Assembly (NCBI GenBank): GCA_022414725.1
Contig: CM039464.1
Location: 10,024,038 to 10,088,037 of the forward strand
Length of the DNA stretch: 64,000 nucleotides
Direction: 5' to 3'
Origin: Microglena sp. YARC
Lineage: Eukaryota; Chlorophyta; Chlorophyceae; Chlamydomonadales; Chlamydomonadaceae
How positions within the stretch are numbered: position 1 is the stretch's first letter; the number at the start of each line of letters is the position of its first letter. Shown here piece after piece: positions 36,375-64,000 of this stretch. The translations under genes were made by a program, and so were the position numbers. A model generated the notes under the pieces. That model did not search any database. It saw only the letters and a list, made by a program, of their open reading frames with translations, and was not told the DNA's origin.

Positions 36375-36961
36375 AAGCGATGTACAAGGAGGGTAATGCT
36401 GCACAGAGTGGCAGGGCGAGTGGGTCGGTGGGCAGGCGGGTGGTGGGTGGGCCAAGTGGCTGGGTGGCTGGGCTGGTGGCTGCGTGGGTGGCTGAGTGGG
36501 TAGGTGGGCAGGTGTGTGGGTTGGTGGTGGGCAGGTGGGTGGGTGGGTATGAAGAGTGGGTGGGCCGGGGGCTAACGACTCTACTACCACACTGGCCGGC
36601 CAACCTCATTGTGGCATTCAAAGCATGCGGCAAAAGGAGGGTAATACTGCACAGAGTGACTGCCCCGAGTGGGTGGGTGGGCTGGTGGCTGAGTGGGTGG
36701 GTGGGCAGGTGGCTATGTGGGTGGGTGGGAAGGTGGGTGAGTTGGTGTGTGGGCTGAGTGGCTTGGTGGGTGGGCAGGTGGCTGAGTGGGTAGGTGGGTA
36801 GGTGGGTGGTGGGTGGGTGGGCAGGTGGCTGAGTGGGTGGGTGGGCAGGCGGGTGGCTGTGTGGGTGGGCAGGTGGCTAAGTGGGTGGGTGGGCAGGTGG
36901 GTGGGTGGGCCGAGTGGGTGGATGGGTGGTTGGGTAGGGAGAGTGGGTGGGCCATGGGCTA
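36375..36961 (+). repeat. Left copies of ceramide kinase exon 1 in GGTGGGTGGGC repeats
   Basis: About 36375-36425 and 36571-36680 repeat parts of the exon at 36962 (gactctactaccacactggc, ggcaaaaggagggtaatact). In the longer copy the start codon position reads ACG. The rest is degenerate gtgggtgggcaggtggct. Confidence 0.7.
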
Positions 36962-37061
36962 ATGACTCTACTACCGCACTGGCCGGACAACCTCATTCTG
37001 ACATTCGAATCACGTGGCAAAAGGAGGGCGTCTCTATTCCGCTGGCAGCGCAATCTCATTG
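36962..37061 (+). CDS. Ceramide kinase exon 1 (candidate start)
   Basis: ATG opens MTLLPHWPDNLILTFESRG and ends RWQRNLI, donor ATTG|gtgtag, phase 1. The next exon fits in phase. Support comes from its own left copies and the junction array on its right. No transcription start is visible, and an upstream exon entering through an AG near 36937-36943 is possible. Confidence 0.5.
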
Positions 37062-38384
37062 GTGTAGTGCTGACCTCATGAATGTAGTGCTGACCTCATG
37101 GTTGTAGTGCTGACCTCATTGGTGTAGTGCTGACTCATGAATGTAGTGCCGACCTCATGGGTGTAGTGCTGACCTCATTGGTGTAGTGCTGTCCTCATTG
37201 GTGTACTGCTGACCTCATCAGTGTAGTGCTGACCTCATTGGTGTAGTGCTGACCTCATCAGTGTAGTGCTGACCTCATTGGTGTAGTGCTGACCTCATTG
37301 GTGTAGTGCTGACCTCATTGGTGTAGTGTTGTCCTCATTGGTGTAGTGCTGGCCAACTCAAAATTGTCCCCATGCTTTTCTCTTTACCAAGCCGTATATC
37401 AACCCTGTAGGTCTGGCAACTTTTCTTGTCCTAACTCAGATTTGAACTTGAACTTGAACTTGAATTTGAAATCTACTAACCTACAGATCTGTCAACCTTT
37501 CTGGTTCTAAGTTAGATTTGAACTTGAACTTGAATTTGAAATCTATTAACCTGAAGATCTTGCAACCTTTCTGGTCACAACTCAGATTTGAACTTGAATT
37601 TGAAATCTATTAACCTGCAGATCTGGCAACCTTTCTGGTTCTAAGTTATATTTGAACTTGAACTTGAATTTGAAATCTATTAACCTGAAGATCTTGCAAC
37701 CTTTCTGGTCACAACTCAGATTTGAACTTGAATTTGAAATCTATTAACCTGCAGATCTGGTAACCTTTCTGGTTCTAAGTTATATTTGAACTTGAACTTG
37801 AATTTGAAATCTATTAACCTGAAGATCTTGCAACCTTACTGGTCACAACTTAAATTTGAACTTGAATTTGAAATCTATTAACCTGCAGATCTGGCAACCT
37901 TTCTGGTTCTAACTTAGATTTGATCTTGAACTTGAATTTGAAATCTATTAACCTGAAGATCTTGCAACCTTTCTGGTCACAACTTAGAGTGGAACTTGAA
38001 TTTGAAAAATATTCACCTGCAGATCTGGCAACCTTCTGGTCCTAACTTAGATTTGAACTTGAACTTGAATTTGAAATCCATTCACCTGCAGATCTGGCAA
38101 CCTTTCCGGTCCTAACTTAGATTTGAACTTGAACTTGAATTTGAAATCCATTCACCTGCAGATCTGGCAACCTTTCTGGTCCTAACTTAGATTTGAACTT
38201 GAACTTGAATTTGAAATCTATTCACCTGCAGATCTGGCAACCTTTCTGGTCCTAATTAAGATTTGAACTTGAACTTCAAATTTGAAATCTATCACCTGCA
38301 GATCTGGCAACCTTTCCGGTCCTTCTCCCAGTCAAATAGCTGAAGAAGGTAAGCGCAATGATATGGTCATGTTTCAAACGCCTG

Positions 38385-38416
<32 letters not shown>

Positions 38417-40371
38417 ATGTTGGTGATGGTGGTGGTGATGATGATGGTGATGATGATGATGATGATGATGATGGTCATTTTTCCTGGTTTACTACTGGAC
38501 TTCAAATGTGCCCGCAGCCTGATGAAGTCAAGGGGGGATTATAACATCACGGAACATTTAGGTGCCAAACTGTCTAATGGCAGCTTGCAGGGAGGTCCCC
38601 TAGCTGAGTGCTCCCTATTTTGACTTCTAGGCCCCACCCCACCCCATCCTATCCCTCCCCACCCAAGCAAAAAAACAAAACCAAAACTAAACACCTCCAT
38701 AATTGACCCACCCACCCCTCCCCACTCAACAGAAAACCCAAACCAAATACCTCAATCCCCAACCCACCCACCCCACTATCCCACCCCACCCACCCCACCC
38801 CACCCCACCCCACCCCACCCCACCCCACCTCACCTCACCTCACCCCATCCCACCCCACCCCACCTCCACACCCTCCACCCCTAAAACCTAAACCCAACAG
38901 TATTGCAGGAGGTCCCAGAGAAAGCAGCTACATTATGGCACGATGTTCAGAAAGTGCTTGCCACTCTCACGCCACCACACCCCACCTCACCCCACACCAG
39001 ACCACCTCCATACCCTCCACCCCGCCCCACCTCCATACCCTCAACCCCACCCCACCTCCACACCCTCCACCCCACCCCACCTCCATACCCTCCACCTTTA
39101 CCCAACACAACACAACACAACACAACACAACACAACACAACACAACACAACACAACCTAACCCAACCCAACCCAACCCAACCCAACCCACCTCCATACAT
39201 ACCCTCCACCCCACCCTACCTCCATACCCTCCACCACACCCCACCCCACCTCACCCCACCTCACACCACCTCACTTCACACCACACCACACCACACCACA
39301 CCACACCACACCACACCACACCAACCCACCCAACCTCCACACCCTCCACCCCCAAACCCAACACTATTGCAGGAGGTCCAAGAAAAAGCGGCTGTGTCCT
39401 GGCACGATGGTCAGAAAGTACTTGCCACTCTCACACCAAACCAACCCACCTCACCCCACCCCACCCCACACCACACCACACCACACCACACCACACCACC
39501 TCAATACCCTCCACCCCGCCCCACCTCCATACCCTCAACCACACCCCACCTCCACACCCCTCCACCCCACCCCACCTCAATACCCTCCACACCACACCAC
39601 TTCATACCCTCCACCTTTACCCATCCCAACCCAACCAACCCAACCACCTCCATACCCTCCACCCCACCCTACCTCCATACCCTCCACACACACCACACCA
39701 CACCACACCACACCACACCACACCACACCACACCACACCACACCACACCACACCACCTCCATACCCTCCACCCCAAACCACACCACACCAACCCAACCCA
39801 ACCCACCTCCATACCCTCCACCCCATACCCTCCGCCCCAAACCTCCACACCCTCCACCCCCCAAAAAGTATTGCAGGACGTACCAGAAAAAGAAGCTGTG
39901 TTCCGGCACGATGGTCAGAAAGTGCTTGCCACTCTCACGCCAACCCACACCACACCACACCACACCTGACCTCACCCCAACCCAACCCAACCCAACCCAA
40001 CCCAACCCAACCCAACCCAACCCAACTCCACACCCTCCACCTTCACACCCTCCACCCCTAAACCCGACAGTATTGCAGGAGGTACCAGAAAAAGAAGCTG
40101 TGTTCTGGCACCATGGTCAGAAAGTGCTTGCCACTCTCACGCCAACCTTCATTCAGCTGGTAACCGTCGAAAAGCATGGGGTCGAATCTGTTACGTGGAA
40201 AAGTGAGTTTCTCAGTGTGGTGTGGGTGTAGGTGTGTGTGTGTGTGTGTGTGTGTGGGGGGGGGGGTCACCAGAAAGTGCTTGTGACTCTCACGCCAACC
40301 TTCATTCAGCTGGTAACCGTCGAAAAGCATGGAGTCAAATCTGTTACGTGGAAAAGTGAGTTTCTCAGTGT

Positions 40372-40409
<38 letters not shown>

Positions 40410-40523
40410 GGGGGGTCACCAGAAAGTGCTTGTGACTCTCACGCCAACCTTCATTCAGCTGGTAACCGTCGAAAAGCATGGGGTTGGATCTGTTACGTGG
40501 AAAAGTGAGTTTCTTTGTGTGGT

Positions 40524-40554
<31 letters not shown>

Positions 40555-41414
40555 GGGGTCACCAGAAAGTGCTTGTGACTCTCACGCCATCCTTCATTCA
40601 GCTGGTAACTGTCGAAAAGTATGGTCGAATCTGTTACGTGGAAAAGTGAGTTTCTCAGTGTGGTGTGGGTGTAGGTGTGGGTGTGTGGGTGGGGGTGGGT
40701 GGGTGGTGGGGGTGGGGGTGGGGGGTCACCAGAAAGTGCTTGTGACTCTCACGCCAACCTTCATTCAGCTGGTAACCGTCGAAAAGTATGGGGTCGAATC
40801 TGTTACGTGGAAAAGTGAGTTTCTCAGTGTGGTGTGTGTGTAGGTGTGTGTGTGGGGGGGAGGGGGGGTGGGGTGGGTGGGGGTCACCAGAAAGTGCTTG
40901 TGACTCTCACGCCAACCTTCATTCAGCTGGTAACCGTCAAAAAGCATGGGGTCGAATCTGTTACGTGGAAAAGTGAGTTTCTCAGTGTGGTGTGTGTGTA
41001 GGTGTGTGTGTGTGTGTGTGTGGGGGGGGGGGGGGGGTCACCAGAAAGTGCTTGTGACTCTCACGCCAACCTTCATTCAGCTGGTAACCATCGAAAAGCA
41101 TGGGGTTGGATCTGTTACGTGGAAAAGTGAGTTTCTCAGTGTGGTGTGGGTGTTAGTGTGTGTGTGTGTGTGTGTGGGGTGGGGGTGTGGGGGGGGGGTC
41201 ACCAGAAAGTGCTTGTGACTCTCACGCCAACCTTCATTCAGCTGGTAACCGTCGAAAAACATGGGGTCGAATCTGTTACGTGGAAAAGTGTGTTGCTCAA
41301 AACATGTGGTGTGGGTGTGGGTGTGTGGGTGTTGGTGTGGGTGTGGGTGTTGGTGTTGATGTGGGTGTGGGTTTATGTGTTGGTGTTGGTGTGGGTGTGG
41401 GTGTGGGTGTTTTC

Positions 41415-41448
<34 letters not shown>

Positions 41449-44400
41449 GTGGGTCACCAGAAAGTGCTTGCGACTCTCACTCAGACCTTTAATCACCTGG
41501 TCAACAAAAAATCTTGAATCTGTTATGTGGAAAATCTGTGGTTGAATCTGTTATGTGGTTGATCTGTGGTTGAATCTGTTATGTGGTTGATATGTGGTTG
41601 AATCTGTTATGTGGTTGATATGTGGTTGAATCTGTTATGTGGAAAAGTAAATTGCTCAAAACACTCCGTGTGGTGTGGGTGTTGTTGTTAGTGTGGGTGT
41701 GTGGGTGTGGGCGTGGACGTTGGTGTTGGTGTGGGTGTGGGTGTTGGTGTGGGTGTGTGTGGGGGTCACCAGAAAATGCTTTCAACTCCCACCCCAACCT
41801 TCATTCGCCTGGTAACGGTCGAAAAGCATGCGGTTGGATCTGGTACATGGAAAAGTGAATTGCTCAAAACACTCCGTGTGATGTAGGTGTTTGTGTTAGT
41901 GTGGGTGTGGGTGTGGGCGTTGGTGTGGGTGTGTGTGGGGGTCACCAGAAAATGCTTTCAACTCCCACCCCAACCTTCATTCGCCTGGTAACGGTCGAAA
42001 AGCATGCGGTCGGATCTGGTACGTGGAAAAGTGAATTGCTCAAAACACTCCGTGTGATGTAGGTGTTTGTGTTAGTGTGGGTGTGGCGTTGGTGTGGGTG
42101 TGTGTGGGGGTCACCAGAAAATGCTTTCAACTCCACCCAACCTTCATTCGCCTGGTAACGGTCGAAAAGCATGCGGTCGGATCTGGTACGTGGAAAAGTG
42201 AATTGCTCAAAACACTCCGTGTGGTGTAGGTGTTTGTGTTAGTGTGGGTGTGGGTGTGGGCGTTGGTGTGGGTGTGTGTGGGGGTCACCAGAAAATGCTT
42301 TCAACTCCCACCCCAACCTTCATTCGCCTGGTAACGGTCGAAAAGCATGCGGTCGGATCTGGTACGTGGAAAAGTGAATTGCTCAAAACACTCCGTGTGA
42401 TGTAGGTGTTTGTGTTAGTGTGGGTGTGGGCGTTGGTGTGGGTGTGGGTGGGGGTCACCAGAAAATGCTTTCAACTCCCACCCCAACCTTCATTCGCCTG
42501 GTAACGGTCGAAAAGCATGCGGTCGGATCTGGTACGTGGAAAAGTGAATTGCTCAAAACACTCCGTGTGGTGTAGGTGTTTGTGTTAGTGTGGGTGTGGG
42601 TGTGGGTGTTGGTGTGGGTGTGTGTGGGGGTCACCAGAAAATGCTTTCAACTCCCACCCCAACCTTCATTCGCCTGGTAACGGTCGAAAAGCATGCGGTC
42701 GGATCTGGTACGTGGAAAAGTGAATTGCTCAAAACACTCCGTGTGGTGTAGGTGTTTGTGTTAGTTTGGGTGTGGGCGTTGGTGTGGGTGTGGGTGGGGG
42801 TCACCAGAAAATGCTTTCAACTCCCACCCCAACCTTCATTCGCCTGGTAACGGTCGAAAAGCATGCGGTCGGATCTGGTACGTGGAAAAGTGAATTGCTC
42901 AAAACACTCCGTGTGGTGTGGGTGTTGGTGTTAGTGTGTGTGTGTGTGGGCGTTGGTGCTGGCGTTGGTGTGGGTGTGTGCCTTGGTGTGGGTGTGTGCC
43001 TTGGTGTGGGTGTTGGTGTGGGTGTGGGTGGGGGTCACCAGAAAGTGCTTTCGACTCCCACCCCAACCTTCATTCGCCTGGTAACGGTCGAAAAGCATGC
43101 GGTCGGATCTTGTACGTGGAAAAGTAAGTTGCTCAAAACATTCCGTGTGGTGTGGGTGTGGGTGTGTGTATTGGTGTGTGGGTGTGGGCGTTGGTGTGGG
43201 TGTTTTTGTGTGTGTGTGTGTGTGTGTGTGTAGGGGGGGGGTTACCAGAAAGTGCTTGCGACTCTCACTCCAACCTCCATACAGCTGATGACCGTCGGCA
43301 AGCATGGGGGCGGGTCTGTTACGTGAAAAAGTGAGTTACTCAGTGTGGTGTGGTGATTTAGGGTCCAGGGTTTGGCTGACCAGCCCGTTTGCTTGCACTG
43401 GGGCCAACCACCAGCTTGGAAGCCTCTTAGGGATTTGTTTTCAACTCTGAAAGTTTTTTTTTCTAGCTTACTAGTTTTAGGCCTCCTCCAGGGACAGCTT
43501 TTTATAGCTTTTAAACGTCCACAATTCCAACTCCCATCTGAATCGGACACCATATCAAAGGTGCGGTCCAAAATCTGTCTTTCTGCCCCCCCCCTGGCTT
43601 TTACTACCTACTTTACCTTTAATAGCTCTTTAGCGCCATTTATGGAAGACATGCCCTGTTTTTTTACATTTGTTTAGCAATAAATTCGTCAAAACGGGTT
43701 AAAAACTAGCAATCGCTACATATAGCGGAACAAGTTCGATGCAGCGTCGCCTGCGACGCTAAAAATTGGCGGAGAGTGATCGCGAGTACCTCGTGATGAA
43801 GTCCTTTTTAACTGACTCCAACTGACTGTACCTTCTTCGCTCTGTTCAGCACCTCGTGATGAAGACCTGTTTATCTGAATCCAACTGACTGTACCTTTTT
43901 TGCTCTGTGCAGTACCTCGTGATGAGGTCCTGTTTAACTGACTCCAACAGACTGTACCTTTTTCGCTCTGTGCAGTACCTCGTGATGAAGTCCTGTCTGC
44001 CCAAGTGTTGACCTCCCCCCGAGATGATCAATCGGTAGGGAACGGCAACTAATATAAGTGTTTGAAAAACTAGTATTAACTCATATTATTACGGTCTAAA
44101 AAATAATAGTTTTTCAAAACATTTTAAATTCTGGTGAGACGGCTCGTTCGACTAATATTACATAATATCATATAATATAATATTATTTATTCACTAATAT
44201 TATATACGATAGCTGACCCCCATCAATCGGTGAGGTGAGTTGTTTTTTCCGTTTAGAAAGGGGGTCTTCAGGTAGTGATCAGGGATTTAGTTTCTTTCAA
44301 GATTGGGCTCCTGGTAGCGATTTGGGCAGGCGGACAGAAGGGCGGGCCCAGTGGGCGGATGGGGATCTGTGGGCAGGGCAGAAATTCGAGTCCCGTGGTA

Positions 44401-47627: not shown

Positions 47628-47678
<51 letters not shown>

Positions 47679-47854
47679 AAATAAATAAATACATGAATGA
47701 ACACACAAGGAACACACAATCAAATGAATAAATGCATGTTACGTCTTATGGCAAGGCGTTAAGTTGAGAAGGCTAGTTCACTTGGTTGTTAATCAGGCAC
47801 ATGCAATATCCCTCATACATACGCTTGGTGACATGACTTCTACCCCGACCACTC

Positions 47855-53800: not shown

Positions 53801-56800
53801 TATGTGTGCCATCCTGGCTATCTAGATCAACCTTTAGGCCCAATGTTTATAAAATGGTGCATGGGAATGGTGATTTGTATGACATATTGTGATAGAGGAG
53901 GTCAAAAGCTTTCCGATGAGCTATATAATTTCAAATATAGTGAAAACCAAGAAAGTTAAGTGCAGGGACGTGTGGTGTACTTCTCGAAGTACAGACAATA
54001 CATTTTTATACGACGTATATAAGGTCGATTTGAGAAAAACTATACGGCGTCTTTATACGTATAATCGTATATTATACGTTAATATGTCGGCCTAGCCCTA
54101 GACATATTCAACCAACCAATTGAAATTGAAATTGAAATTGAAATTCTTACATCCGTGTAATACCGTTACTCACAGGACGTGAAGTTAAGGACACCGTAGC
54201 GTAAGCCGGAGCTAACTATAGTCACCGAACCAACCAATGCTCTTGTGGTCCCTACAAAATTCAAGACGGCACAGAAAATAACAACAGCCATTCAGGGCAG
54301 ATGCAAAAACAATTCCTCTTTTCAGGGTCTTGGGACATCATCCCTCTTCCGCCACCAACTCACCGCCACCAACTTACCGCCACCAACTTACCGCCACCAA
54401 CTTACCGCCACCAACTTACCGCCACCAACTTACAATGAAGTTGCACATGGTCTCCCAACTTACAATGAAGTTGCACATGGTCTCATATGCCTGCTCCCAC
54501 TATGCTGTGGGAGCAGGCATATGCTGTGGGAGCAGGCATATGAGACAGGATGCTCAGCTCTGCCCCCACTATATATGTGTAGGGATAGGCGATATGTTAT
54601 TATATGATATCATGTCATCATACGATATCATATGATATCATATGATGCCGGTGGTCTGACTAGGTAACTTTGGCCTGGGCCATCATATCATATGACTTTT
54701 GTATGATATCATACGATATCATACTCGTCTTTGGTCAACATCATATGATTTGCCGTTCCCTATATATGTGTCTCATTTGCCTGCTCCCACTACATATATA
54801 TACGTTTCTATGTCGGCCCAACCCTACTTATAATCGCTTGGGCTGGTTATATGTCATTTGAGATAACTGTATTATGCTGTGCCAGTTATGCACTATTTGA
54901 AGGGTTCTGCCTGCAGGGGCATGGTAGTGAATAACAACCCACCACTGTTGTCGAACTGGAGTGTAGTAAAGCAGTGCTTGGGCTGGCTGTTCATGATGTG
55001 TTCGTTGCAGGTCGTCGTCAACCGCGATGGTAGCTTGTCCAGTTGAGGTAGGAGACCGCTCCCCACCGGCGTACGACGGGCTCCCTTAACACCACGCCCC
55101 ACCAGGCGTTATCATTACCTTTATGATGTGTTAATTGCCCAACCCTACATTATATATTTTATGTATTGATGTTTTGTATATCATTGATGTATTAGATGCT
55201 GACGGGACGCATGAAGCATTGCTTAAAGTCGGGGTCGGCGGTGAACTCAACATGCAAATATGATGGGATTTGAATTTTAATTTTAATTTGATTTGATTTG
55301 AAATATAGTTCACCTGTGCATGCAGATTGGAGGCGATGGTCTGTTCCAAGAGATTCTGACCGGACTTATGAAGCATCGCTTGAAGTGGGGGTCAGCGGTG
55401 AACTCCCCATCTCACACCATCCGTCTTGGCCACATACCTGGGGGATCCACAGATGCATGTGCTTATTCGTGAGTAGAGGGGGTGGGAGTGGCGTGTAGGT
55501 GGTGTGTGAGTGGTGTGGTGTGGTGGGGGTGGGGTAATGGGGGAGGGGAGCGGTGGTGGTGGCTGGTTTAGTGGTGGTAGTGTGGTGGAAGGTGGTGAGT
55601 AGTGGGTTACACCATTCGTCTTGGCCACATACCTGGGGGATCCACAGATGCATGTGCTTATTCGTGAGTAGTGGGGGAAGTGGTGGTATGGGTGGGTGGC
55701 TGGCAGGCTGGCTGACTGGAGTAGTGGTGGTAGTGTGGCGGAGTAAAGAGGAATCAATTCTGGGCCACATATCTGGGGGATCCACAGATGCATGTGCATA
55801 CTTGTGAGTAGTGGTGTGTGGGGGGGTAGGTGGTGTGTGTGTGGTGGTGGTGGTAGGGGGGTTGGGAGTGGCGGTATGTATGTGTGAGTGGGTGGGGGGG
55901 TAGGTGAGTGGCTGACTGGAGTTGTGGGGGTAGAGTGGTGGAGAGAAGAGAAATGAAGTATGGGCCACATACCTGTGGGATCCGCAGATGCATGTGCATA
56001 TTTGTGAGTAGTGGTGGTAGTGGGGTGGTGGGTGGTGGTGGGTGTGTGTGTGTGTGTGGGGGGGGGGGGCAGTGGGTTGGGGGCTTGTGGTGGTGGTGGT
56101 GGTGGTGGTGGTGGGGGGGGGAGGAACAATGGCAAATAAGAGAAATCAAGTATGGGCCACATACCTGTGGGATCCACAGATGCATGTGCATACTTGTGAG
56201 CAGGGTGGGTGGGAGTGGTGTGTGTGGGGGGGGGGGGGGGGGGGGGAGGGACAATGGCAAAAAAAGAGAAATCAAGTCTGGGCTACAACCACCACCCACC
56301 CCCCACCACCCACCTACCCCACACACACACCCAGTCTACACGGCACTCATTCTGTAGAAGTGGCAGTCATGCACACCCACCAACCACCACTCACCGCCCA
56401 CCACCCGTTAACCCACCACCACACCTCACTACCACCACCACCACACACCACACACACCACATCACCCACCACACACACACCACCACCACCACACACCACA
56501 CACACAGCACCACCACACCTCACCCCCCACCCCCCCCCCCCTCCCAGTCTACACGGCACTCGTTCCGTAGAAGTGGCCGTCATGCACATCTTGTTGGGGA
56601 CCCCTCTCTTTGGACGTGTCCAGTGTGTGTGCTCCTGGTGATCATCACAACCCACCACCACCACACCTCACCCACCACCACCACACACCACCCACCCACC
56701 ACCACCACGTATCACCCCCCTCCCAGCTTACACGGCACTCGTTCTGTAGAAGTGGTACCCACCCACCATAACCACCCCTCTCCCAGTTTACACGGCACTC

Positions 56801-58914
56801 GTTCCGTAGAAGTGGCAGTCATGCACTCCCACCACTCACCACCCACCACACCTCACCCGCCACCCACCATTCACCACCCTCCCAGTCTACACGGCACTTG
56901 TTTGTAAAAGTGGCCGTCATGCCATCTTGTTGGGACCGCCTCTCTTTGGACGTGTCCAGTGTGTGTGCTCCTGGTGATCACCACCACCCACCACCACCCT
57001 CCCAGTTTACACGGCACTTGTTCATTAGAAGTGGCAGCCACCCACCACCCACCACCACCACCCTCCACCCTCCCAGTCTACACGGCACTTGTTCTGTAGA
57101 AGTGGCCGTCATGCACATCTTGTTGGGGGACCGCTCTCTTTGGACGTGTCCAGTGTGTGTTGCTCTGGTGATCACCACACCACCACCACCTCCCAGTTTA
57201 CACGGCACTTGTTCGTTAGAAGTGGCAGCCACCCAACCACCCACCACCCACCACCACCACCACCCCTCACCTCCACCCTCCCAGTCTACACGGCACTTGT
57301 TCTGTATAAGTGGCCGTCATGCACATCTTGTTGGGGGACCGCCTCTCTCTTGACGTGTCTAGTGTGTGTGCTCCTGGTGATCACCACCACCCACCACCAC
57401 CCTCCCAGTTTACACGGCACTTGTTCATTAGAAGTGGCAGCCACCCACCACCCACCACCACCACCCACCACCCTCCCAGTCTACACGGCACTCGTTCCGT
57501 AGAAGTGGCCGTCATGCACATCTTGTTGGGGGACCGCCTCTCTCTGGACGTGTCTAGCGTGTGTGCTCCTGGTGATCCAGACGTGAAGTACTTTGTGTGC
57601 CAAGCCGCTTATGGATTCCTTGGGGACGTCCTGAGAATGAGTGAGGGCATGCGAGCTGTGGGCCCTTCCAGGTGGGGCTTGCTTTATTTTATTATGTATT
57701 TATTTTTTATTTATTGTATTTTCCAAGCTGCCCAGTGTTCCAGGTGGGTGGTGGGTACGTCCTACAAATAAGTGAGGGTATGCGAGCTGTGGGACCTTCC
57801 AGGTGGGGCTTGCTTGCTTTATTTTTTATTTAGTTGTTATGTATTTATTTGTTTTGTTTTGTTTATGTATTTATTTATTTATTTATTTTATTTATTTATT
57901 TATCTCCATCGGTGCCTAATTATTGCCTTTTGGGGACAGATAGTTTTGACACATGGACTCCAGTCCAGTGAAAAACAAATAAATGCTACAAAGTTGCTTA
58001 ACCACATTACCTCAACAAATAAATACTTGGATTTGGGTATGCCCAGGGTTTGTGAACCAGATGAAGTAAAACCTTTTTTTCACTATGGGGTTCCCTAATT
58101 CAGGACAGATTTTACACAAATGTGGGACGGAGCCAAACGCAGTCAATTTTTTTTTTTGAAAATTTAATTAGGTAGGCCTGTTTTTCACATCTTCCCTTAC
58201 AAGTCATTTTCACAGCAGGTTGTGGAAGGTACTGTGCAGGCAGTACAGGCTGTACAAGGCCAAAAATCACTGAGTATTTGCACGTTTTGGGCCAATTTAG
58301 GAGTCCCTAATTATGTTACAAGCTGCACAGCCGCAACAGCATCGTTTTGTGTCTTCGTCTTTTCAGCAAAGGGTGTGAAATCACTTTTCGAACATTTTTG
58401 AAGTTCCAAATTTCAAATTTCAAATCCAACTTTCAAAAAATATTAAAAAAACAAACTTCTTTTTCTTTTTGCATGAATCATCCACATCTGAAGTTAGATT
58501 TTGATTTGGGATTTTTCCAGGTATAGGCCGAAATGCCAGGTGGAATTGCTATTGCAGTTCACTCAGAAGTCGAGGCTAAAGCGCAGCCTCCGACCTTGCG
58601 GTAGGGGCTAGATATGCCTTTCCTCCCGCAGAAACTTGATTCGCCATAGCTCGCGCGACCTCGTATTTGACGCAGATTGAGTATGTCCCAAAATATTTCG
58701 TACATCTCGTGTACTGCCAACTGCCTGCCGGCCTGGGCTGCTCGCAATTGAATGCCCATCGGAACAAAAAATAGCCGCGCGTCTAGCTGAAACACTCACG
58801 AGAAACGCTATCTACTCAGATTTTGATTCCGAGCATTTTGGGGTGTGTACGGCTCTGTCCCACACTCTTGTCCCGAATTAGGGCGTTTGGGGGATTAGGC
58901 ACTTATGGAGATAT

Positions 58915-58990: not shown

Positions 58991-61900
58991 TGCTGTGTGA
59001 CCTGGTGACCCAGACATGATCACAATATCACACTTACGCACTATCACACATCTCCAGAGGGGCGCAAGGGTATCCGTGACAAAACCATCAAATCCGCAAA
59101 ATTGAAAATTGGAAATTGAAAATCCGCAAAATTGTAAATTGGAAATCTGCAAAATTGAAAATTGGAAATAAGCACGAGCTGCCACAAGACGTGCCACAAG
59201 ATTTAGGGAACCCACCCGTTTGCATGCATTTGTACATACTGGAGAATGGCTACCATATTGTTTTTATCTGGTCTTGCTGACCCTCTGCGCCTGAGCTTGG
59301 ACTACCCTGCGACTGCACAAAGGGTCAAATCGGTGCACACTTATTTTCCGAACTTCCAGGCGGGCCCTTAGGTTTTAGGTCTTAGGTTTTAAGTTGTAGG
59401 GTTTAGGGTAGGGTTTAATATGGCTTTAGAAAAATATTGTGCGCTGTGGGTCCTTCCAGATTGGGCTGGCTTGTGCTTCTGACTTTTGGGGTTATGCGCA
59501 GCAGCTTCTAGGCAGCTTCCTTCCAGATTGGACTGGCTTGCACTGTTTCTTTTGGGGGCTACGCGTAGCAGCTTCTAGGCAGCTTCTTCCAGATTGGAAC
59601 TGGCTTGCAACTGTTTCTTTTGGGGGCTACGCGTAGCAGCTTCTAGGCAGCTTCCTTCCAGATTGGACTGGCTTGCACTGTTTCTTTTGGGGGCTACGCG
59701 TAGCAGCTTCTAGGCAGCTTCCTTCCAGATTGGACTGGCTTGCACTGTTTCTTTTGGGGGCTAAGCGTAGCAGCTTCTAGGCAGCTTCCTTCCAGATTGG
59801 ACTGGCTTGCACTGTTTCTTTTGGGGGCTACGCGTAGCAACTTCTAGGCAGCTTCCTTCCAGATTGGACTGGCTTGCACTGTTTCTTTTGGGGGCTACGC
59901 GTAGCAACTTCTAGGCAGCTTCCTTCCGGATTGGATAGGTTTGAGCTGTTTTTTGGGGGGGGGGCTATGCGCAGCAGCTTCCAGGCAGCTTCCTTCCTGT
60001 GTCCCTGGGCCAACCTGAAGCTAGGTAGTGCAAAAATAATGATAGCGCCTGGTGGGGCGTGGTATTAAGGGAGCCCCGTCTTACTAAGGGGGCTGCTACT
60101 TTTACCTGACAAAAAGTAATGATAACTCCTGGTGGGCGTGGTAGTAAGGGAGCCCCGTCTTACAGCGGTACAGAGCGGGCTGCTACTTTACATGGACAAA
60201 GCTATCATGGTGGTTGAAGTCGACCGCGAACACTAAAGCACATCCGTAGGGATTTGAACCCCGCACCTTCCTATTTCAACGACCTCTATCATTGAGCCAT
60301 TCGTCGGTACTAGAAGTATTTGAGATATTGACTTCGTAGGGATTTGAACCCCGCACCTTCCTATTTCAGCGACCTCTATCATTGAGCCATTCGTCGGTTC
60401 TAGAAGTATTTGAGATATTGACTTCGTAGGGATTTGAACCCCGCACCTTCCTATTTCAACGACCTCTACCATTGAGCCATTCGTCCGTACTATAAGTATT
60501 TGAGATATTGACTTCGTAGGGATTTGAACCCCGCACCTTCCTATTTCAACGACCTCTACCATTGAGCCATTCGTCGGTACTAGAAGTATTTGAGATATTG
60601 ACTTCGTAGGGATTTGAACCCCGCACCTTCCTATTTCAACGACCTCTGCCATTGAGCCATTCGTCGGTACTAGAAGTATTTGAGATATTGACTTCGTAGG
60701 GATTTGAACCCCGCACCTTCCTATTTCAACGACCTCTACCATTGAGCCATTTGTCGGTACTAGAAGTATTTGAGATATTGACTTCGTAGGGATTTGAACC
60801 CCGCACCTTCCTATTTCAACGACCTCTACCATTGAGCCATTCGTCGGTACTAGAAGTATTTGAGATATTGACTTCGTAGGGATTTGAACCCCGCACCTTC
60901 CTATTTCAATGACCTCTACCATTGAGCCATTCGTCGGTACTAGAAGTATTTGAGATATTGACTTCGTAGGGATTTGAACCCCGCACCTTCCTATTTCAAC
61001 GACCTCTACCATTGAGCCATTCGTCGGTACTAGAAGTATTTGAGATATTGACTTCGTAGGGATTGAACCCCGCACCTTCCTATTTCAACGACCTCTACCA
61101 GAGCCATTCGTCGGTAAGAAGTATGAGATATTGACTTCGTAGGGATTTGAACCCCGCACCTTCTATTTCAACGACTCTACCATTGAGCCATTCGTCGGTA
61201 CTAGAAGTTGAGATATTGACTTGTAGGAGTTTAGTTGAGGGATCCGATTGCACCCACCACTCACCATCCACCACCCACCACTCACCACCCCACCACCCAC
61301 ACTCACCACCACCCACCACCCTAGGTATGACCTGGCTGGGGCATAGCACCCAATCCCTACCCACTGAACCCCACACCCCACACCCCACCCAACCCTCCCC
61401 ACACCACCCAACACTCACACCCAACACTCACCACCAACACCCAACACCCTAGATATATGACTGGCTGGGGCATAACACACGATCCCTACCCCACTGAACC
61501 TCACCCCACACCCCACCCCAACCCTCCCCACCACCCCTCACCACCCCAACACCACCCATCTAATTCCTTCAACTCAACTCCTACAAGGTCATTCTCTCAA
61601 ATACCCCCAGCTCTTCTCCTATCATGTTTGCTCATATGTATCAAACCCACCACCCACCACTCACCACTCACCACCCACCACCCTAGGTATGACCTGGCTG
61701 GTGCGCTCAAATTCCTTCAACTCAACTTCTACAAGGTCATTATCTCAAATACCTCCAGCTCTCCTCCTAACTTTTTTTCTCATCTGTATCAAACCACCAC
61801 CCCACCACCTCCCCACCCCACACCACCCCTCCCCACCCCACCCACAACCCACCACCCACCACCCTAGGTTTGACCTGGCTGGGGCCTTGCACCCGATCCT

Positions 61901-62478
61901 TCCCCACTGAAATCCACCCCACACACCACTGAACCCCTCCCACCCCTCCCCACCACCACCCACCACCTACCACCTACCACCCACCACCCTAGGTATGACC
62001 TAGCTGGGGCCTTGCACCCGATCCCTACCCCACTGAACCTCACCCCACAACCCACTCCACCCCTTCCCACATACCACCCACCACCCTAGGTATGACCTGG
62101 CTGGTGCGCTCAAATTCCTTCAACTCAACTCCTACAAAGTCATTATATCTACCTCCAGCTCTTCTCCTATCATGTTTGCTCATATGTATCAAACCCACCA
62201 CCCACCACCCACCACCCTAGGTATGACCTGGCTGGTGCGCTCAAATTCCTTCACCTCAACTCCTACAAGGCCATTATCTCAAATACCTCCAGCTCTTCTC
62301 CTATCATGTTTTGCTCATATGTATCAAGCCCACCACCCACCACCCACCACCCACCACCCACCACCCTAGGTATGACCTGGCTGGTGCGCTCAAATTCCTT
62401 CAACTCAACTCCTACGAGGTCAACATTGCCTACCAGTTGGCCGAACCTTCAGAAGCTCTTCACCAGCCTCATGGAAAG
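36962..62478 (+). CDS. Ceramide kinase, 3'-incomplete (DAGK catalytic family)
   Basis: Phosphorylates ceramide to ceramide 1-phosphate. Ten phase-matched exons (36962-37061, 40071-40202, 43976-44034, 45979-46050, 47097-47251, 49752-49884, 51859-51927, 55326-55468, 57480-57671, 62370-62478) give about 388 residues. Residues about 45-170 fit the PH-like region that precedes the kinase domain in CERK. Kinase motifs follow: NLLIFINPVSGTRKC, then IGGDGLFQEILTGLMKHR, RLGHIPGGSTDACAYS, VAVMHILLGDRLSLDVSSV and YDLAGALKFLQLNSYE. PGGSTD and the HILLGD..DVSS block favour CERK over sphingosine or diacylglycerol kinase. The first nucleotide-loop motif lacks its usual Gly after NPVSG. The C-terminal third lies beyond the window. 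The start at 36962 is the weakest part. Confidence 0.88.
37062..37360 (+). repeat. Exon 1 junction minisatellite
   Basis: About 15 units of 19-20 bp, tgacctcattggtgtagtgc, matching the exon 1 end and donor (AATCTCATTG|GTGTAGTGC). Confidence 0.85.
37430..38330. repeat. 74-80 bp TTGAACTTGAA satellite
   Basis: About 12 units of gatttgaacttgaacttgaa, atctattaacctgcagatct, ggcaacctttctggt. No exon similarity seen. Confidence 0.9.
38380..38625 (+). repeat. GATGATG microsatellite and dispersed segment
   Basis: A GCT/GAT tract is followed by catttttcctggtttactac, tggacttcaaatgtgccc. The same segment, again behind a GAT tract, occurs at about 50848-50935. Confidence 0.7.
38640..40070 (+). repeat. 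CACCCCA repeats with three left copies of exon 2
   Basis: Copies of the exon 2 start at 38901-38974, 39364-39436 and 39869-39944 (TATTGCAGGAGGT to CTTGCCACTCTCACG). Their acceptors read caacag (intact), caacac (dead) and aaaaag. The linkers are ccacaccacacc and ccatacccaccc types. Confidence 0.88.
40071..40202 (+). CDS. Ceramide kinase exon 2: PH-like region
   Basis: Acceptor cccgacag, donor AAAA|gtgagt. Phase 1 in and out. Reads LQEVPEKEAVFWHHG, then KVLATLTPTFIQLVTVEKHG and VESVTWK. Confidence 0.75.
40203..43345 (+). repeat. 17 cassette-like right copies of exon 2
   Basis: Each copy begins after tcaccag or taccag with AAAGTGCTT and ends ACGTGGAAAA|gtgag, about 82 bases, separated by GT/GGGTGT linkers. 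Copies 1-8 (to about 41480) are close to the exon. Copies 9-16 form a second type (AAAATGCTTTCAACTCCCAC, gctcaaaacactccgtgtg). Copy 17 is near the first type again. The frame stays open in almost all of them. Confidence 0.92.
43786..43975 (+). repeat. Three left copies of exon 3
   Basis: Units of 63-65 bp: TACCTCGTGATGAAGTCCTG, ttaactgactccaactgact, gtacctttttcgctctgtgcag. Each ends in a good acceptor; the last is the one used at 43976. Confidence 0.88.
43976..44034 (+). CDS. Ceramide kinase exon 3
   Basis: Acceptor cgctctgtgcag. Reads IPRDEVLSAQVLTSPRDDQS in phase and leaves in phase 0. A MITE is inserted exactly at its donor (see next entry). Confidence 0.7.
44036..44222 (+). mobile_element. 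hAT-like MITE inserted at the exon 3 donor
   Basis: Starts TAGGGAACGGCAAC and ends gctgacccca-like. The 8-bp target duplication is TCAATCGG (44028-44035 and 44223-44230). The left copy plus the MITE gives CAATCG|gtaggg. The right copy keeps the probable original donor CAATCG|gtgagg at 44229. The interior (tttgaaaaactagtattaac) differs from other members. Confidence 0.88.
44270..44460. other. Short unique stretch in intron 3
   Basis: Contains three ggtagcgat motifs (44310, 44426 and nearby) but no exon with matching phase. Nothing is recognised. Confidence 0.4.
44505..44950. repeat. Foldback element and minisatellite grown from its end
   Basis: A foldback copy (about 44508-44665) is followed by about five units of 60 bp with aaaggagctgcctagaagct and gctacgcgtagccccaaaac. 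The unit contains the element's terminal motif. Confidence 0.8.
44960..45130. repeat. Three copies of GAGGTACCTACGTAGTGC
   Basis: Short repeats of gaggtacctacacagtgct, gacaggagttgtgtgtac, tgcctgcacagtcata ahead of the AAC tracts. Confidence 0.7.
45180..45960. repeat. AAC trinucleotide array with embedded 40-mer
   Basis: Long (AAC)n tracts are interrupted about seven times by atgagagcaacaactaaaag, aataagaagaacaggaacaa. Translations rich in Thr, Asn or Val are artefacts. Lies left of exon 4. Confidence 0.92.
45979..46050 (+). CDS. Ceramide kinase exon 4: PH-like region
   Basis: Acceptor tatgtgtgcag, donor CTG|gtgagt, phase 0 in and out. Reads NECSSWKIETSQQVIGFGAR then SVVL. Confidence 0.8.
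46060..46745. repeat. GGTGATGATGGT array right of exon 4
   Basis: A GGTGAT-type array in which tgtgcattgtg from the intron start recurs (about 46070 and 46363). The Val/Met and Asp/Gly translations are artefacts. Confidence 0.9.
46905..47000. repeat. (TA)n microsatellite
   Basis: About 90 bases of TATATA with short breaks, ahead of exon 5. Confidence 0.95.
47097..47251 (+). CDS. Ceramide kinase exon 5: end of PH-like region
   Basis: Acceptor tgtctttgcag, donor CAGAG|gtacgc, phase 0 in, phase 2 out. Begins ELGLVVQSVGRKDAGN, then VEWCLVEHRLYSHSLDVS, and ends with the amphipathic WVDAIQSGARNILQ that closes PH domains. Confidence 0.88.
47252..48115 (+). repeat. Right copies of exon 5 with GGCTTGG and (CA)n repeats
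   Basis: 47331-47407 repeats the last about 77 bases of exon 5 with the donor CAGAG|gtacgc. A shorter copy lies at 47791-47828 (aatcaggcacatgcaatatc). Between and after them are gtcgggtcgggttggg repeats (47410-47620) and two CA microsatellites (47628-47680, 47855-48103). Confidence 0.88.
48165..48420. repeat. 26 bp GAGGTTTGACGGGGTTTGGC minisatellite
   Basis: About nine units of ggtgaggtttgacggggtttggc. Confidence 0.9.
48570..49390. repeat. C-rich CCCTCCCC tract and (GGAT)n
   Basis: About 740 bases of pyrimidine-rich degenerate repeats with recurring cccccatcccaccgccccc, then about 70 bases of ggatggatggat. The Pro/Ser open frames are artefacts. Confidence 0.88.
49393..49490 (-). mobile_element. 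Family A element, minus strand, truncated
   Basis: Reads ctacagtccaagggtaggcc, gcacttgcccaaccgtgaca, gatgaactgaacccccaaa. Confidence 0.8.
49540..49751 (+). repeat. CCAAACC repeats with a left copy of exon 6
   Basis: 49628-49671 repeats the start of exon 6 (cgcaacttgctcatcttcac, caaccccatgagtagta). The rest is aaccaaacccaaacc. Confidence 0.8.
49752..49884 (+). CDS. Ceramide kinase exon 6: first nucleotide-binding motif
   Basis: Acceptor atgcctgcag, donor CAG|gtaagc, phase 2 in, phase 0 out. Reads RPRNLLIFINPVSGTRKC then LERAEVKFTVVETMRQ. The Gly-rich turn after NPVSG is replaced by TRKC. Confidence 0.9.
49885..50178 (+). repeat. Four right copies of exon 6
   Basis: Units of about 64-90 bp with gcaagctgtgggagtgttca and tgtcgagaccatgcgacag|gtaagc. 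The first three lack the middle of the exon, which the fourth keeps. Donors stay intact, though the third has gcaacag. Confidence 0.88.
50179..50935. repeat. GATGATGATG array and dispersed segment
   Basis: GAT/GGT/GAG tracts to about 50847, then catttttcttggtgtcgtac, tggactccaaatgtacctgc, the same segment as at 38475-38555. Confidence 0.85.
50936..51665 (+). repeat. 27 bp minisatellite made from exon 6 sequence
   Basis: About 25 units of catgcttgagtgcgctgaag, tacagtt. They match the exon 6 stretch coding LERAEVKFTV. The array begins with a copy of the exon's aagctgtgggagtgttcagt and ends with its gttgtcgagacc..caggtaagc, so it is a right copy whose middle was amplified. Confidence 0.9.
51720..51850. 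repeat. CCAACCAA tract
   Basis: Degenerate ccaaccaaccaacc leading to the exon 7 acceptor. Confidence 0.85.
51859..51927 (+). CDS. Ceramide kinase exon 7
   Basis: Acceptor tatgtccacag, donor GCG|gtacgt, phase 0. Reads DHARDIVTAMDEAQMANYQG then IIA, the helix and strand before the GGDG motif. Confidence 0.88.
51928..53285 (+). repeat. Exon 7 junction minisatellite, about 1.35 kb
   Basis: About 33 units of 36-46 bp: ggggcgtggcattgttgcg|gtacactttgtttcttttc. The core GGCATT(A/G)TTGCG|GTAC is the exon 7 end and donor. The minus-strand Asn/Thr/Pro-rich open frame is an artefact. Confidence 0.93.
53290..54110. other. AT-rich intron part, possible old element
   Basis: Contains cgtatagatgtataaacgta on the left and tacgttaatatgtcggccta with gcccta on the right. 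The tatgtcggcc motif recurs near 54805. 53445-53535 holds two copies of atttgcatcacatatcaact. No exon seen. Confidence 0.45.
54345..54541. repeat. CACCAACTTACCGC repeats and a hairpin
   Basis: Six units of accgccaccaactt. The next 60 bases hold two copies of acttacaatgaagttgcaca. Then comes a perfect 16-base inverted repeat, atatgcctgctcccac (54485-54500) with gtgggagcaggcatat (54507-54522), the right arm repeated once more at 54526. Confidence 0.8.
54580..54762 (+). mobile_element. hAT-like MITE, TAGGGAAC family
   Basis: Starts TAGGGATAGGCGATATG, ends tttgccgttcccta, with a perfect 8-bp target duplication TATATGTG on both sides. Interior ggtaactttggcctgggcc is shared with the copies at 4207 and 23962. 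Confidence 0.92.
55003..55122 (+). mobile_element. tRNA-derived SINE, 5'-truncated, with target duplication
   Basis: Body gtcaaccgcgatggtagctt to tail ggcgttatcattacctt. Flanked by a perfect 10-bp direct repeat, ATGATGTGTT (54993-55002, 55123-55132). The truncated head plus duplication indicates LINE-type integration. Confidence 0.9.
55195..55253 (+). repeat. Left copy of exon 8 (internal part)
   Basis: gctgacgggacgcatgaagc, attgcttaaagtcggggtcg matches the middle of exon 8. This copy lacks the acceptor end. Confidence 0.8.
55326..55468 (+). CDS. Ceramide kinase exon 8: GGDG motif
   Basis: Acceptor gcatgcag, donor TTC|gtgagt, phase 0 in, phase 2 out. Reads IGGDGLFQEILTGLMKHR, then SHTIRLGHIPGGSTDACAY. 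GGDG is the nucleotide-binding signature of the family; PGGSTD is the CERK form of the second motif. Confidence 0.95.
55469..56322 (+). repeat. Four right copies of exon 8 in GGTGGTG repeats
   Basis: Copies at about 55606-55670, 55758-55809, 55960-56012 and 56152-56203 (ggccacatacctgggggatc, cacagatgcatgtgc) each end in a gtgag donor. Linkers are ggtggtgtgtgggg. Confidence 0.9.
56323..57479 (+). repeat. Ten left copies of exon 9, alternating long and short
   Basis: Copies start at about 56335, 56547, 56728, 56786, 56885, 57005, 57080, 57196, 57285 and 57409, each behind a ccctcccag-type acceptor. From 56885 on, long copies (about 100 bases, to ctcctggtgatcacc) alternate with short ones (about 36 bases, gtttacacggcacttgttc, agaagtggcagcc), separated by ccaccacccaccacc. 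Confidence 0.92.
57480..57671 (+). CDS. Ceramide kinase exon 9
   Basis: Acceptor accctcccag, donor CCAG|gtgggg, phase 2 in and out. Begins LHGTRSVEVAVMHILLGDRL, then DVSSV, a FVCQAAYGFLGDVLRMSE stretch and GPSR. Confidence 0.95.
57730..57910 (+). repeat. Right copy of exon 9 and TTTATTTA repeats
   Basis: 57745-57810 repeats the exon 9 end and donor (cgtcctacaaataagtgagg, gtatgcgagctgtgggacct, tccag|gtgggg). A TTTAT-rich tract follows. Confidence 0.85.
58093..58883. mobile_element. Element with inverted ends CCCTAATTC..GGACA
   Basis: Left end ccctaattcaggacag, with gtgggacggagcc about 30 bases inside. The right end is its inverse complement with changes (ggctctgtcccacac, tgtcccgaattaggg). 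About 790 bp. Minus-strand open frames near 58560-58800 show no transposase motif. Confidence 0.55.
58915..59175. repeat. (TTTA)n and AAAATTGGAAATTG repeats
   Basis: 58915-58990 is nearly pure TTTA. 59095-59170 has three units of ccgcaaaattgaaaattgga. Confidence 0.9.
59360..59415. repeat. Degenerate TTTAGGG-like stretch
   Basis: taggttttaggtcttaggtt, then gtagggtttagggtaggg. Resembles decayed plant-type telomere repeats inside an intron. Confidence 0.5.
59450..60020. repeat. 60 bp minisatellite from a foldback-element end
   Basis: Eight units of gggggctacgcgtagcagct, tctaggcagcttccttccag, attggactggcttgcactgt. The agcagcttctaggcagct part is the end of the foldback family. The last unit continues into tgtgtccctgggccaacctg as the full element would. 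Confidence 0.88.
60035..60310 (-). mobile_element. tRNA-derived SINE with duplicated tail
   Basis: Two tail pieces (gatagcgcctggtggggcgt at 60041, gataactcctggtgggcgtg at 60122) lead into a full body and head on the minus strand. The head is the first unit of the array that follows. Confidence 0.8.
60243..61230 (-). repeat. 11-unit array of the SINE's tRNA-like head
   Basis: Exact 90 bp period through most of the array. Each unit, read on the minus strand, has an A box (TGGCTCAATGGTAGAGG) and a B box (GGTTCAAATCC) about 30 bases apart, then actagaagtatttgag-type linker. The two rightmost units are deletion-ridden. The 280-codon minus-strand open frame exists only because 90 is divisible by three. 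Confidence 0.93.
61250..62369 (+). repeat. Left copies of exon 10 in CCACCACCCA repeats
   Basis: Copies begin at about 61324, 61452, 61686, 61866, 61991, 62089 and 62219 behind ccaccctag acceptors. Long copies continue gctcaaattccttcaactca with actcctacaaggtca. Short ones diverge after ctggctggggc. A partial copy without acceptor lies near 61560. Confidence 0.9.
62370..62478 (+). CDS. Ceramide kinase exon 10
   Basis: Acceptor caccctag, donor AAG|gtgagc, phase 2 in, phase 0 out. Reads YDLAGALKFLQLNSYEVNIA, then YQLAEPSEALHQPHGK. Confidence 0.92.
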
Positions 62479-62499
62479 GTGAGCTCACAAGCACATCAA

Positions 62500-62565
62500 T
62501 AAATACATAAATACATAAAGAAATGTAAATAAATACATAAATAAATTAAACATGAATAAATAAAT

Positions 62566-62626
<61 letters not shown>

Positions 62627-62750
62627 AATACATAAATGGTATGCCTTATTACGAGGTGAATATAGCCTACTGAATATAGCCCCTGTTGGCCGCGCCGTCA
62701 GAAGCTTGTCACCAGCCTCATGGGAATGTGAGCTCACAAGCGCATATATG
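62500..62750 (+). repeat. AAATACATAAAT, (CAGA)n and a right copy of exon 10
   Basis: A CAGA run of about 60 bases at 62566-62625. 62650-62727 repeats the 3' half of exon 10 with donor aat|gtgagctcacaag. Confidence 0.88.
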
Positions 62751-62754
62751 AATA

Positions 62755-64000
62755 AGTGTAGGGCTAGCGGTGCAAGTGTGACCTGTCACCATCACCCTTT
62801 CAGATCAGTGTAGGGCTAGCGGTGCAAGTGTGACCTGTCACCATCACCCTTTCAGATCAGTGTAGGGCTAGCGGTGCAAGTGTGACCTGTCACATCATCC
62901 TTCAGATCAGTGTAGGGCTAGCGGTGCAAGTGTGACCTGTCACCATCACCCTTCCAGATCAGTGTAGGGCTAGCGGTGCAAGTTTGACCTGTCACCATCA
63001 CCCTTTCAGATCAGTGTAGGGCTAGGGTGCAGGTGTGACTGTCACATCACCCTTTCAGATCAGTGTAGGGCTAGCGGTGCAAGTGTGACCTGTCACATCA
63101 CCCTTCAGATCAGTGTAGGGCTAGCGGTGCAAGTGTGACCTGTCACATCAGCCTGCAAGTCCGTCACCATCACCCTTTCAGATCAGTGTAGTAGGGTGCA
63201 AGTGTGACCTGTCGATCAGTGTAGGGCTAGCGGTGCAAGTGTGACCTGTCCATCACAGATCAGTGAGGGCTAGCACCATCATTTCAGTCAGTGTAGGGGC
63301 TAGCGGTGCAAGTGTGACCTGTCGATCACCCAGGTGTGGGCTAGCGGTGCAAGTGTGACTGTCACCATCACCATCAGATCCCAGTGTAGGGCTAGCGGTG
63401 CAAGTGTGACCTGTCACCATCACCCTTCAGATAGTGTAGGGCTAGCGGTGCAAAGTGTGACCTGTCACATCACTTTCAGATCAGTGTAGGGCTAGCGGTG
63501 CAAGTTGACATGTCACCATCACCCTTTCAGATCAGTGTAGGGCTAGCGGTGCAAGTGTGACCTGTCACCATCACCCTTCCAGATCAGTGTAGGGCTAGCA
63601 GTGCAAGTGTGACCTGTCACCATCACCCTTTCAGATCAGTGTAGGGCTAGCGGTGCAAGTGTGACCTGTCACCATCACCCTTTTCAGATCAGTGTAGGCT
63701 AGCGGTGCAAGTGTGACCTGTCACCATCACCCTTTCAGATCAGTGTAGGGCTAGCGGTGCAAGTGTGACCTGTCACCATCACCCTTTAGATCAGTGTAGG
63801 CTAGCGGTGCAAGTTTGACCTGTCACCATCACCCTTTCAGATCAGTGTAGGGCTACGGTGCAAGTGTGACCTGTCACCATCACCCTTCAGATCAGTGTAG
63901 GGCTAGCGGTGCAAGTGTGACCTGTCACCATCACCCTTTCAGATCAGTGTAGGGCTAGCGGTGCAAGTGTTGACCTGTCACCATCACCCTTTCAGATCTA
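62755..64000 (+). repeat. 51 bp array of an acceptor, probably for exon 11
   Basis: About two dozen units of tgtagggctagcggtgcaag, tgtgacctgtcaccatcacc, ctttcag|atcag. Each ends in a good pyrimidine-rich acceptor. Units at 63130-63380 carry deletions. The array runs off the window; by the pattern in this gene the source exon should lie just to the right. Confidence 0.9.

Follow-up and report, generated by a model that had tools for sequence, protein, structure and literature searches.

How do introns come to be filled with copies of the splice boundaries of the very exons that they separate? The question is raised by a 64,000 nucleotide stretch of Microglena sp. YARC (GenBank assembly GCA_022414725.1, contig CM039464.1, positions 10,024,038 to 10,088,037 of the forward strand; hereafter 'the window'), in which a ceramide-kinase-like gene at positions 36375-64000 is flanked, exon after exon, by partial copies of the exons' own ends. 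The explanation that we favor, at a probability of roughly 78%, combines two processes: repeated tandem duplication that is blind to exon edges and runs across them, and selection against those duplications that copied a whole exon. All of the results below come from this one window and this one main gene.

Copies were sought by comparing each exon, together with 12 flanking bases, to the window with blastn. A match was left out of the count if it contained under 12 exon bases or if half of it overlapped a better one; copies within 6.5 kb of their exon and on the same strand were regarded as ‘near’ (those more than 6500 bases away were tallied separately); copies whose alignment extends beyond the exon end were termed ‘edge-bearing’; and an AG or GT was scored as intact with a tolerance of a 2-base shift. 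The position of one exon, E4, was one base off in this search, as well as in the measurements of repeat density, end pairing, motif counts and array extents, which should matter little; it was corrected for the splice-site scores.

Around eight of the nine exons E2 to E10, 63 edge-bearing copies were found, and all 63 display the same polarity: a copy to the left of its exon holds the acceptor and the first part of the exon, and a copy to the right holds the last part and the donor, just as an earlier note on this DNA had described. None is reversed, and none contains a whole exon. The same exons have 17 internal copies, plus one that overlaps an exon end (at E6), while for E4 the blastn search found no copies within the window. 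With the inclusion of X and Y, candidate exons that would belong to a second gene (described below), 38 left copies extend past the acceptor and 55 right copies past the donor; the donor side is present in none of the former and the acceptor side in none of the latter. Of the 38 left copies, 36 retain the AG, and of the 55 right copies, 49 retain the GT; there are 3 left and 14 right internal copies, in addition to the one overlapping the E6 end. All 93 edge-bearing copies are near their exon and on its strand. The matches that do not conform are few: three distant same-strand pieces of Y, two distant minus-strand matches, and one near minus-strand match at E10 (76%). Edge copies occur on both sides of E2, E9, E10, X and Y. 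The copies end or begin at about 23 distinct breakpoints within exons (9 left and 14 right, by our own grouping of the blastn copies), and those on one side mostly have a few breakpoints in common (Y, left copies ending near base 38 and right copies starting near 54; E2, left copies ending near base 69 and right copies starting at 40). The suggestion that splice sites have been multiplied in the process is also upheld, with an acceptor scoring at least at the lower quartile of real sites in 33 of 38 left copies and a donor doing so in 29 of 55 right copies.

The individual arrays, all of them on the plus strand, differ considerably in size. Exon E2 (40079..40202) is preceded by three copies of its acceptor and exon bases 1 to 66-69 (38897..39945; 88-96% by blastn), which lie inside C/A-rich repeats, and is followed by 17 copies and one partial copy that start at exon base 40 or beyond and continue through the exon end into the donor side, within G/T-rich repeats (40271..43342; blastn and Tandem Repeats Finder, TRF). 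Exon E3 (43976..44034) has three left copies of the acceptor side and first 19-21 bases (43785..43933), the outermost without a usable acceptor. Exon E4 lies at 45979..46050. Exon E5 (47097..47251) has two right copies of its last part and donor side (47326..47828, blastn), with the GT of the outer copy not intact. To the left of E6 (49752..49884) is a single blastn copy of exon bases 5-49 without the acceptor (49628..49672); to its right (49885..51674; TRF and blastn) are three copies with the donor side, 13 internal pieces belonging to a minisatellite with a 27-bp unit, derived from exon bases about 73-116, and the one copy that overlaps the exon end. Exon E7 (51859..51927) gives rise to an array at 51916..53276, the 38-bp unit of which comprises the last E7 bases and the donor side (35.8 copies by TRF, 13 by blastn). 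Exon E8 (55326..55468) has one internal left copy of bases 26-85 (55194..55253) and four right copies of its last part and donor side (55609..56203), all found by blastn. By the same means, E9 (57480..57671) was found to have nine left copies, of the acceptor and first 29-41 or 98 bases (56324..57382), and two right copies, at 57752-57814 (last part and donor) and 59438-59471 (82%, GT not intact), and E10 (62370..62478) six left copies with the acceptor and one internal (61313..62273) and one right copy of its last part and donor side (62673..62739).

Together, the exon-bearing arrays make up 9528 of the 21344 intron bases (45%) between E2 and E10, with extents drawn by hand. Their share of individual introns ranges from zero in two of the eight (E3-E4 and E4-E5) up to 94% in E8-E9. 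A further array at 59451-59997, with a 67-bp unit that holds CTTCCAGATTGG, resembles the end of E9 minus the donor GT by eye, and is perhaps an old array belonging to the right side of that exon.

These counts agree with those of the earlier note for the left sides of E2 (3), E3 (3), E6 (1) and E8 (1 internal) and for the right sides of E2 (17), E5 (2), E8 (4) and E10 (1), and come close to them elsewhere: 9 against 10 to the left of E9, 6 plus 1 internal against 7 to the left of E10, 2 against 1 to the right of E9, and 3 plus a minisatellite against 4 to the right of E6. The roughly 33 units reported to the right of E7 are matched by TRF and fall to 13 by blastn. The copies ascribed to an exon E1 (2 left, about 15 right) and an array ascribed to E11 were not confirmed, as tblastn placed no homolog at E1, and the E11 exon would fall past the end of the window, its supposed array having been noticed only by eye. 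At 37404-38348, an array of 70-bp units containing CTGCAG/ATCTGG (a slash marks the splice junction here and below) lies upstream of a candidate exon at about 38297-38348, and would be a left array if that exon is real. The description of the pattern as gene-wide holds for eight of nine exons; E4, the introns E3-E4 and E4-E5, and a second, universal-stress-protein-like (Usp-like) gene in the window are without copies.

The identity of the gene rests on a joined translation of E2 and E5 to E10, which matches the Pfam domain DAGK_cat (3.3e-24) and has 11 homologs, the closest at 51% identity over 85% of the query. The top two homologs carry no informative name; the others include two ceramide kinases (P0004 and P0005), one DAGKc domain-containing protein, and one diacylglycerol kinase (a weak match). 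The gene is ceramide-kinase-like, in agreement with the earlier identification, and the phosphorylation of ceramide is its predicted activity. Exons E5 to E10 were placed by tblastn of homologs (E5 with P0001 and P0002; E10 also from the sequence itself). The basis for E2, E3 and E4 is reading frame and splice sites: E2 is an in-frame open reading frame (ORF) between acceptor and donor that joins E3 in frame, E3 is likewise frame-consistent, and both resemble P0001 by eye (E2 its start). E4, which was noticed because the C/A-to-G/T composition profile discussed below pointed there, is 72 bases long, with the ORF NECSSWKIETSQQVIGFGARSVVL, phase 0-0, good splice sites and no homology support. 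The frame is kept at all eight joins across the nine exons. P0002 is a second ceramide-kinase-like protein, in which the start of E9 is present twice by eye, a point in favor of the duplication scheme set out below.

Is the polarity of the copies anything more than what tandem duplication produces by itself? In simulation, a single tandem duplication over one junction yields only the observed polarity, a result that is true by construction. The idea that the polarity is purely a tautology of this kind is, however, contradicted by introns of the same region. Of 180 random intron segments of exon length, 157 have copies, and these include whole copies for 116 segments and reversed copies for 107. 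A second set of 900 segments includes 724 with edge-bearing copies (whole for 554, reversed for 507). Restricting the latter set to sequence complexity of at least 0.75 leaves 163 segments, 105 of them with edge-bearing copies. Whole copies are present at 67 of these 105, reversed copies at 56, and neither at 29; at 0.80 or above the corresponding numbers are 77 segments with edge-bearing copies, 53, 42 and 19. Against these stand the eight exons with copies, with whole copies at none and reversed copies at none. Because 29 of the 38 complex segments that lack whole copies are purely polar, most of the polarity follows once whole copies are missing. At a rate of 67 in 105 per segment, the chance of eight exons all being without a whole copy would be roughly 3 in 10000 (by rough arithmetic). 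It is because random intron segments have whole and reversed copies, and exons have neither, that selection is added to the explanation.

The sequence of events that we infer would run as follows. Introns would enlarge by repeated tandem duplication without regard to position, exon edges included; a tandem rather than a dispersed process is indicated by copies that are local, on the same strand and boundary-crossing, as serial duplication would leave them, and this is in keeping with the earlier proposal of duplications that start in an intron and end in an exon. A duplication reaching from the upstream intron into an exon would leave an extra acceptor and first part on the left, and one that began within the exon and extended into the next intron would leave an extra last part and donor on the right. 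Arrays would then develop from these, also at a distance from the exon, through additional rounds of slippage or unequal exchange. A duplication that copied a whole exon with both of its splice sites would be purged by selection, since splicing would include the extra exon in the mRNA. The survivor would be one intact exon flanked by one-sided decoys, from which a working protein could be obtained only if splicing chose the innermost acceptor-donor pair, as would fit exon definition.

Several considerations weigh against this scheme. Selection is deduced from what is missing; the eight exons, belonging as they do to one gene, do not count as independent trials, and the 900 random segments overlap one another. 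The complexity cut of 0.75 was picked after the exons had been seen, with three of the nine scoring lower, and X and Y were picked because their arrays were visible. Short duplication units could account for part of the lack of whole copies, the use of the innermost splice sites is a reading of sequence, and the arrays are read from assembled sequence. The switch in base composition described below goes beyond what duplication alone explains, and an expected compositional bias at the breakpoints was not found. A preference of breakpoints for C/A- or G/T-rich microhomology was considered and rejected, since random placement readily matches it (a difference in sequence straddling the breakpoints was reached in 12835 and 16660 of 20000 trials, and one in the sequence inside them in 9451 and 7838 of 20000).

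An alternative to blind duplication is that boundaries are special targets: duplications would favor splice junctions as starting points, with R-loops, splicing intermediates or AGGT motifs as possible causes, and exon edges would be over-copied. Edge copies at eight of nine exons, on both sides in the case of E2, E9, E10, X and Y, are what such targeting would leave, but the rest of the region is copied just as heavily. Fully 67% of 25459 intron 40-mers between 36.4 and 64 kb have a local direct-repeat partner within 6 kb (compared with 0.3-0.5% of positions in two local Markov controls), as do 56% of 705 windows interior to exons. The exon junctions lie in local repeats in 11 of 18 cases, whereas rotating the junctions around the region gives a mean of 11.9 (standard deviation 2.2), and 11 or more are reached by 6888 of 9195 rotations. 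At the Usp-like gene, which occupies a less repetitive stretch (repeat density 0.31-0.50 in the surrounding bins), the count is zero of six; X and Y have four of four, having been chosen for their arrays. At the scale of this window, copying has affected boundaries and other positions to about the same extent, with no boundary preference, and targeted duplication is accordingly very unlikely. A different order of events, in which the introns were themselves born by tandem duplication of AGGT-holding pieces of exon and the copies are remnants of that birth, can appeal to published accounts of tandem duplication as a source of new introns (PMC4974935; PMC2891723, in the portions of those papers that bear on it). 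Most copies here, however, carry existing intronic flank joined to an exon edge, so that the boundary predates the copying, and such an origin is improbable.

A technical explanation must also be weighed. Repeat-rich DNA is error-prone in assemblies, and reads of short repeats might have been joined into false array copies. Against that, breakpoints vary between exons, and an artefact would not spare whole exons while random intron segments have whole copies. The array copies also diverge and form subfamilies: in five measured arrays (17 of 18 copies to the right of E2, 12 of 14 to the left of Y, 9 of 9 to its right, 4 of 9 to the left of E9 and 3 of 7 to the left of E10) the mean identity over all pairs is 0.80-0.96. 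To the right of E2, identity to the exon is 93-97% for the seven inner copies and 85-87% for the outer family, whereas six of eight neighboring pairs within that outer family are 98-100% identical (the last two 95% and 79%); because these neighbors are more alike than they are like the exon, copying appears to continue inside the intron, away from the exon. No clear gradient of identity with distance was found in the measured copies of Y, E9 and E10 (part of the copies in the latter two). An assembly artefact is, on this evidence, very unlikely.

A separate regularity accompanies the arrays. Across the nine exons, the 200 bases upstream of acceptors are 64% A+C and the 200 bases downstream of donors are 62% G+T, a donor-minus-acceptor difference in G+T of 0.27-0.30 that is present when the splice sites are left out too. 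A difference of that size is reached by 3 to 31 of 5525 rotations, all of them shifts of no more than 400 bases, and by none of the 5366 larger shifts. The switch has the same sign at 12 of 14 exons in the window, leaving out exon U1 of the Usp-like gene, which has the opposite sign; it is slightly opposite at E3, zero at E10 and near zero at E5. The C/A-to-G/T switch is also present at X (about 1.6 kb) and Y (about 8.9 kb), and it reverts within introns.

Such a switch might mean that the arrays are retained because G/T-rich 5' and C/A-rich 3' intron halves pair with one another and thereby unite the splice sites, for which paired dinucleotide repeats in zebrafish, as reported in the available text of PMC9198270, offer a precedent. 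The strongest matched pair is that of intron E8-E9 (-137 with 150-nt ends, -315 with 400-nt ends), but the E8 donor side pairs equally well with the acceptor side of E10 (-137 and -320), and matched ends overall are no better than mismatched ones, with 21614 and 24134 of 40320 permutations as good. Pairing of matched ends intron by intron was rejected on those permutations, and retention of the arrays through end pairing is unlikely.

It is possible, although we regard it as tentative, that the switch instead explains how the decoys are tolerated: C/A-rich DNA would be poor in donors and G/T-rich DNA poor in acceptors, so that few decoys would find a partner at exon distance, and the switch would amount to a genome-wide splicing code that permits introns to grow by tandem duplication and provides a natural test of exon definition, with dozens of decoy sites, many of them near-perfect, around the exons. 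With partner sites required to reach the lower quartile of real-site scores at a distance of 20-250 bases, partner donors follow 11 of 38 left copies (4 of 6 at E10), compared with a fraction of 0.48 at random intron positions, and partner acceptors precede 4 of 55 right copies, compared with 0.41. That few decoys have partners is suggestive only, as the copies of an array are not independent. In a cruder count over 500 bases on each side of eleven exons, strong donor motifs number 1 on the acceptor side and 22 on the donor side; acceptor-like motifs are not scarcer on the donor side (60, against 57 on the acceptor side), which counts against the acceptor half of the argument. The acceptor of E10, an exon that starts with GTATGA, reads AG/GTATGA (62370), as do five of its six left copies (61325-62221), the sixth being AG/GTTTGA; judged by these motifs, the acceptor and its copies could act as dual or recursive splice sites.

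The remainder of the window contains further features of interest. Candidate exons X (1587..2070) and Y (8887..8985), both on the plus strand and based on ORFs and splice sites, would belong to a second gene; X has 3 left copies (508-1537) and 4 right copies (2195-2630), and Y has 14 (6796-8805) and 9 (9045-9945). Three pieces of the Y end with its donor lie at 22716-23070, about 13 kb from Y. The Usp-like gene (29739-33970, minus strand) consists of four exons and has no edge copies at its six junctions. Because its four pieces match the protein P0012 at 97-100%, P0012, whose relatives include green algae, is probably a protein of this species or of a very close one. P0002 is probably encoded by a second ceramide-kinase-like gene of the species that P0012 comes from. 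At 60245-61227 are about 11 units of 90 bp, the complement of which is tRNA-like by eye; scans for tRNAs (ARAGORN) and against Rfam gave no match, in this array or elsewhere. A dispersed element with the sequence GATGGTAGCTTGTCCAGTTGAGGTAGGAGACCGC is found at 7890-7990, 8480-8590 and 55010-55115, at 8480 following a tRNA-like stretch (by eye). Near-identical ORFs at 16934-17236 and 18022-18327, about 1.09 kb apart, indicate a direct duplication. Pfam searches with ten other ORFs gave only weak matches below the cut-off.

If blind duplication and selection are indeed at work, the locus illustrates how introns may lengthen in a repeat-rich genome, by tandem duplication anywhere, filtered so as to keep exons single. 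The signature of that filter (pure polarity and no whole-exon copies) requires no RNA data to be scored, whatever the genome. The decoys, in turn, allow exon definition and intron definition to be tested in this organism: if splicing merely joined each donor to the next acceptor downstream, it would select the outermost left copy and break the protein. The composition switch, as a regularity of its own, may aid gene finding in such genomes.

How does this arrangement compare with known systems? Introner elements are a single sequence family spread across many introns of different genes; the exon-bearing arrays here differ in being private to their own exon within the window, the exceptions being the three Y-end pieces (22.7-23.1 kb) and weak matches on the minus strand. 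A minisatellite that carries multiple donor sites, reportedly described by Turri in 1995 in the gene IFI6, is said to have units that hold donor sites, as do those of the E7 array, and to comprise one array at one boundary. Dual-specific splice sites have been reported in tandem-repeat genes (PMC10809524, in its available text), and the AG/GTATGA acceptor of E10, copied in its left array, could similarly serve as both acceptor and donor, although E10 is the only one of this gene's nine exons that starts with GT. In zebrafish, dinucleotide repeats at opposite boundaries of an intron reportedly base-pair with each other and so allow splicing in which U2AF2 is dispensed with (Lin et al. 2016, as cited in PMC9198270); so far as that secondary account goes, the likeness lies in the complementary repeat composition of the two intron ends, and the difference in the ends here being unmatched intron by intron.

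Closer still are duplications at boundaries themselves. In human paralogs, internal tandem repeats occur at exon-intron boundaries and can change splicing (PMC2812944); the variation in that case is between paralogs, and two-sided polarity within one gene is not seen in the available portion of the report. A new intron in the RdRp gene of potato arose from a tandem duplication that spanned an intron-exon boundary (PMC4974935), and in the part of that paper available the unit is seen to span an acceptor and exon start with splicing signals, like the left copies here. The potato case, however, is a single duplication that created an intron, whereas here many exons have one- or two-sided arrays and existing introns have been enlarged. 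The contention that no named mechanism predicts the pattern is, given these accounts of boundary-crossing duplication and boundary repeats (PMC4974935, PMC2812944, as far as their available text goes), too strong. Neither the gene-wide two-sided pattern nor the composition switch appears among the titles and opening abstract lines listed in literature searches that covered few subscription journals. Single boundary-crossing duplications are thus already published, and what looks new is the scale of the copying, its two-sidedness, and the switch from C/A to G/T across exons.

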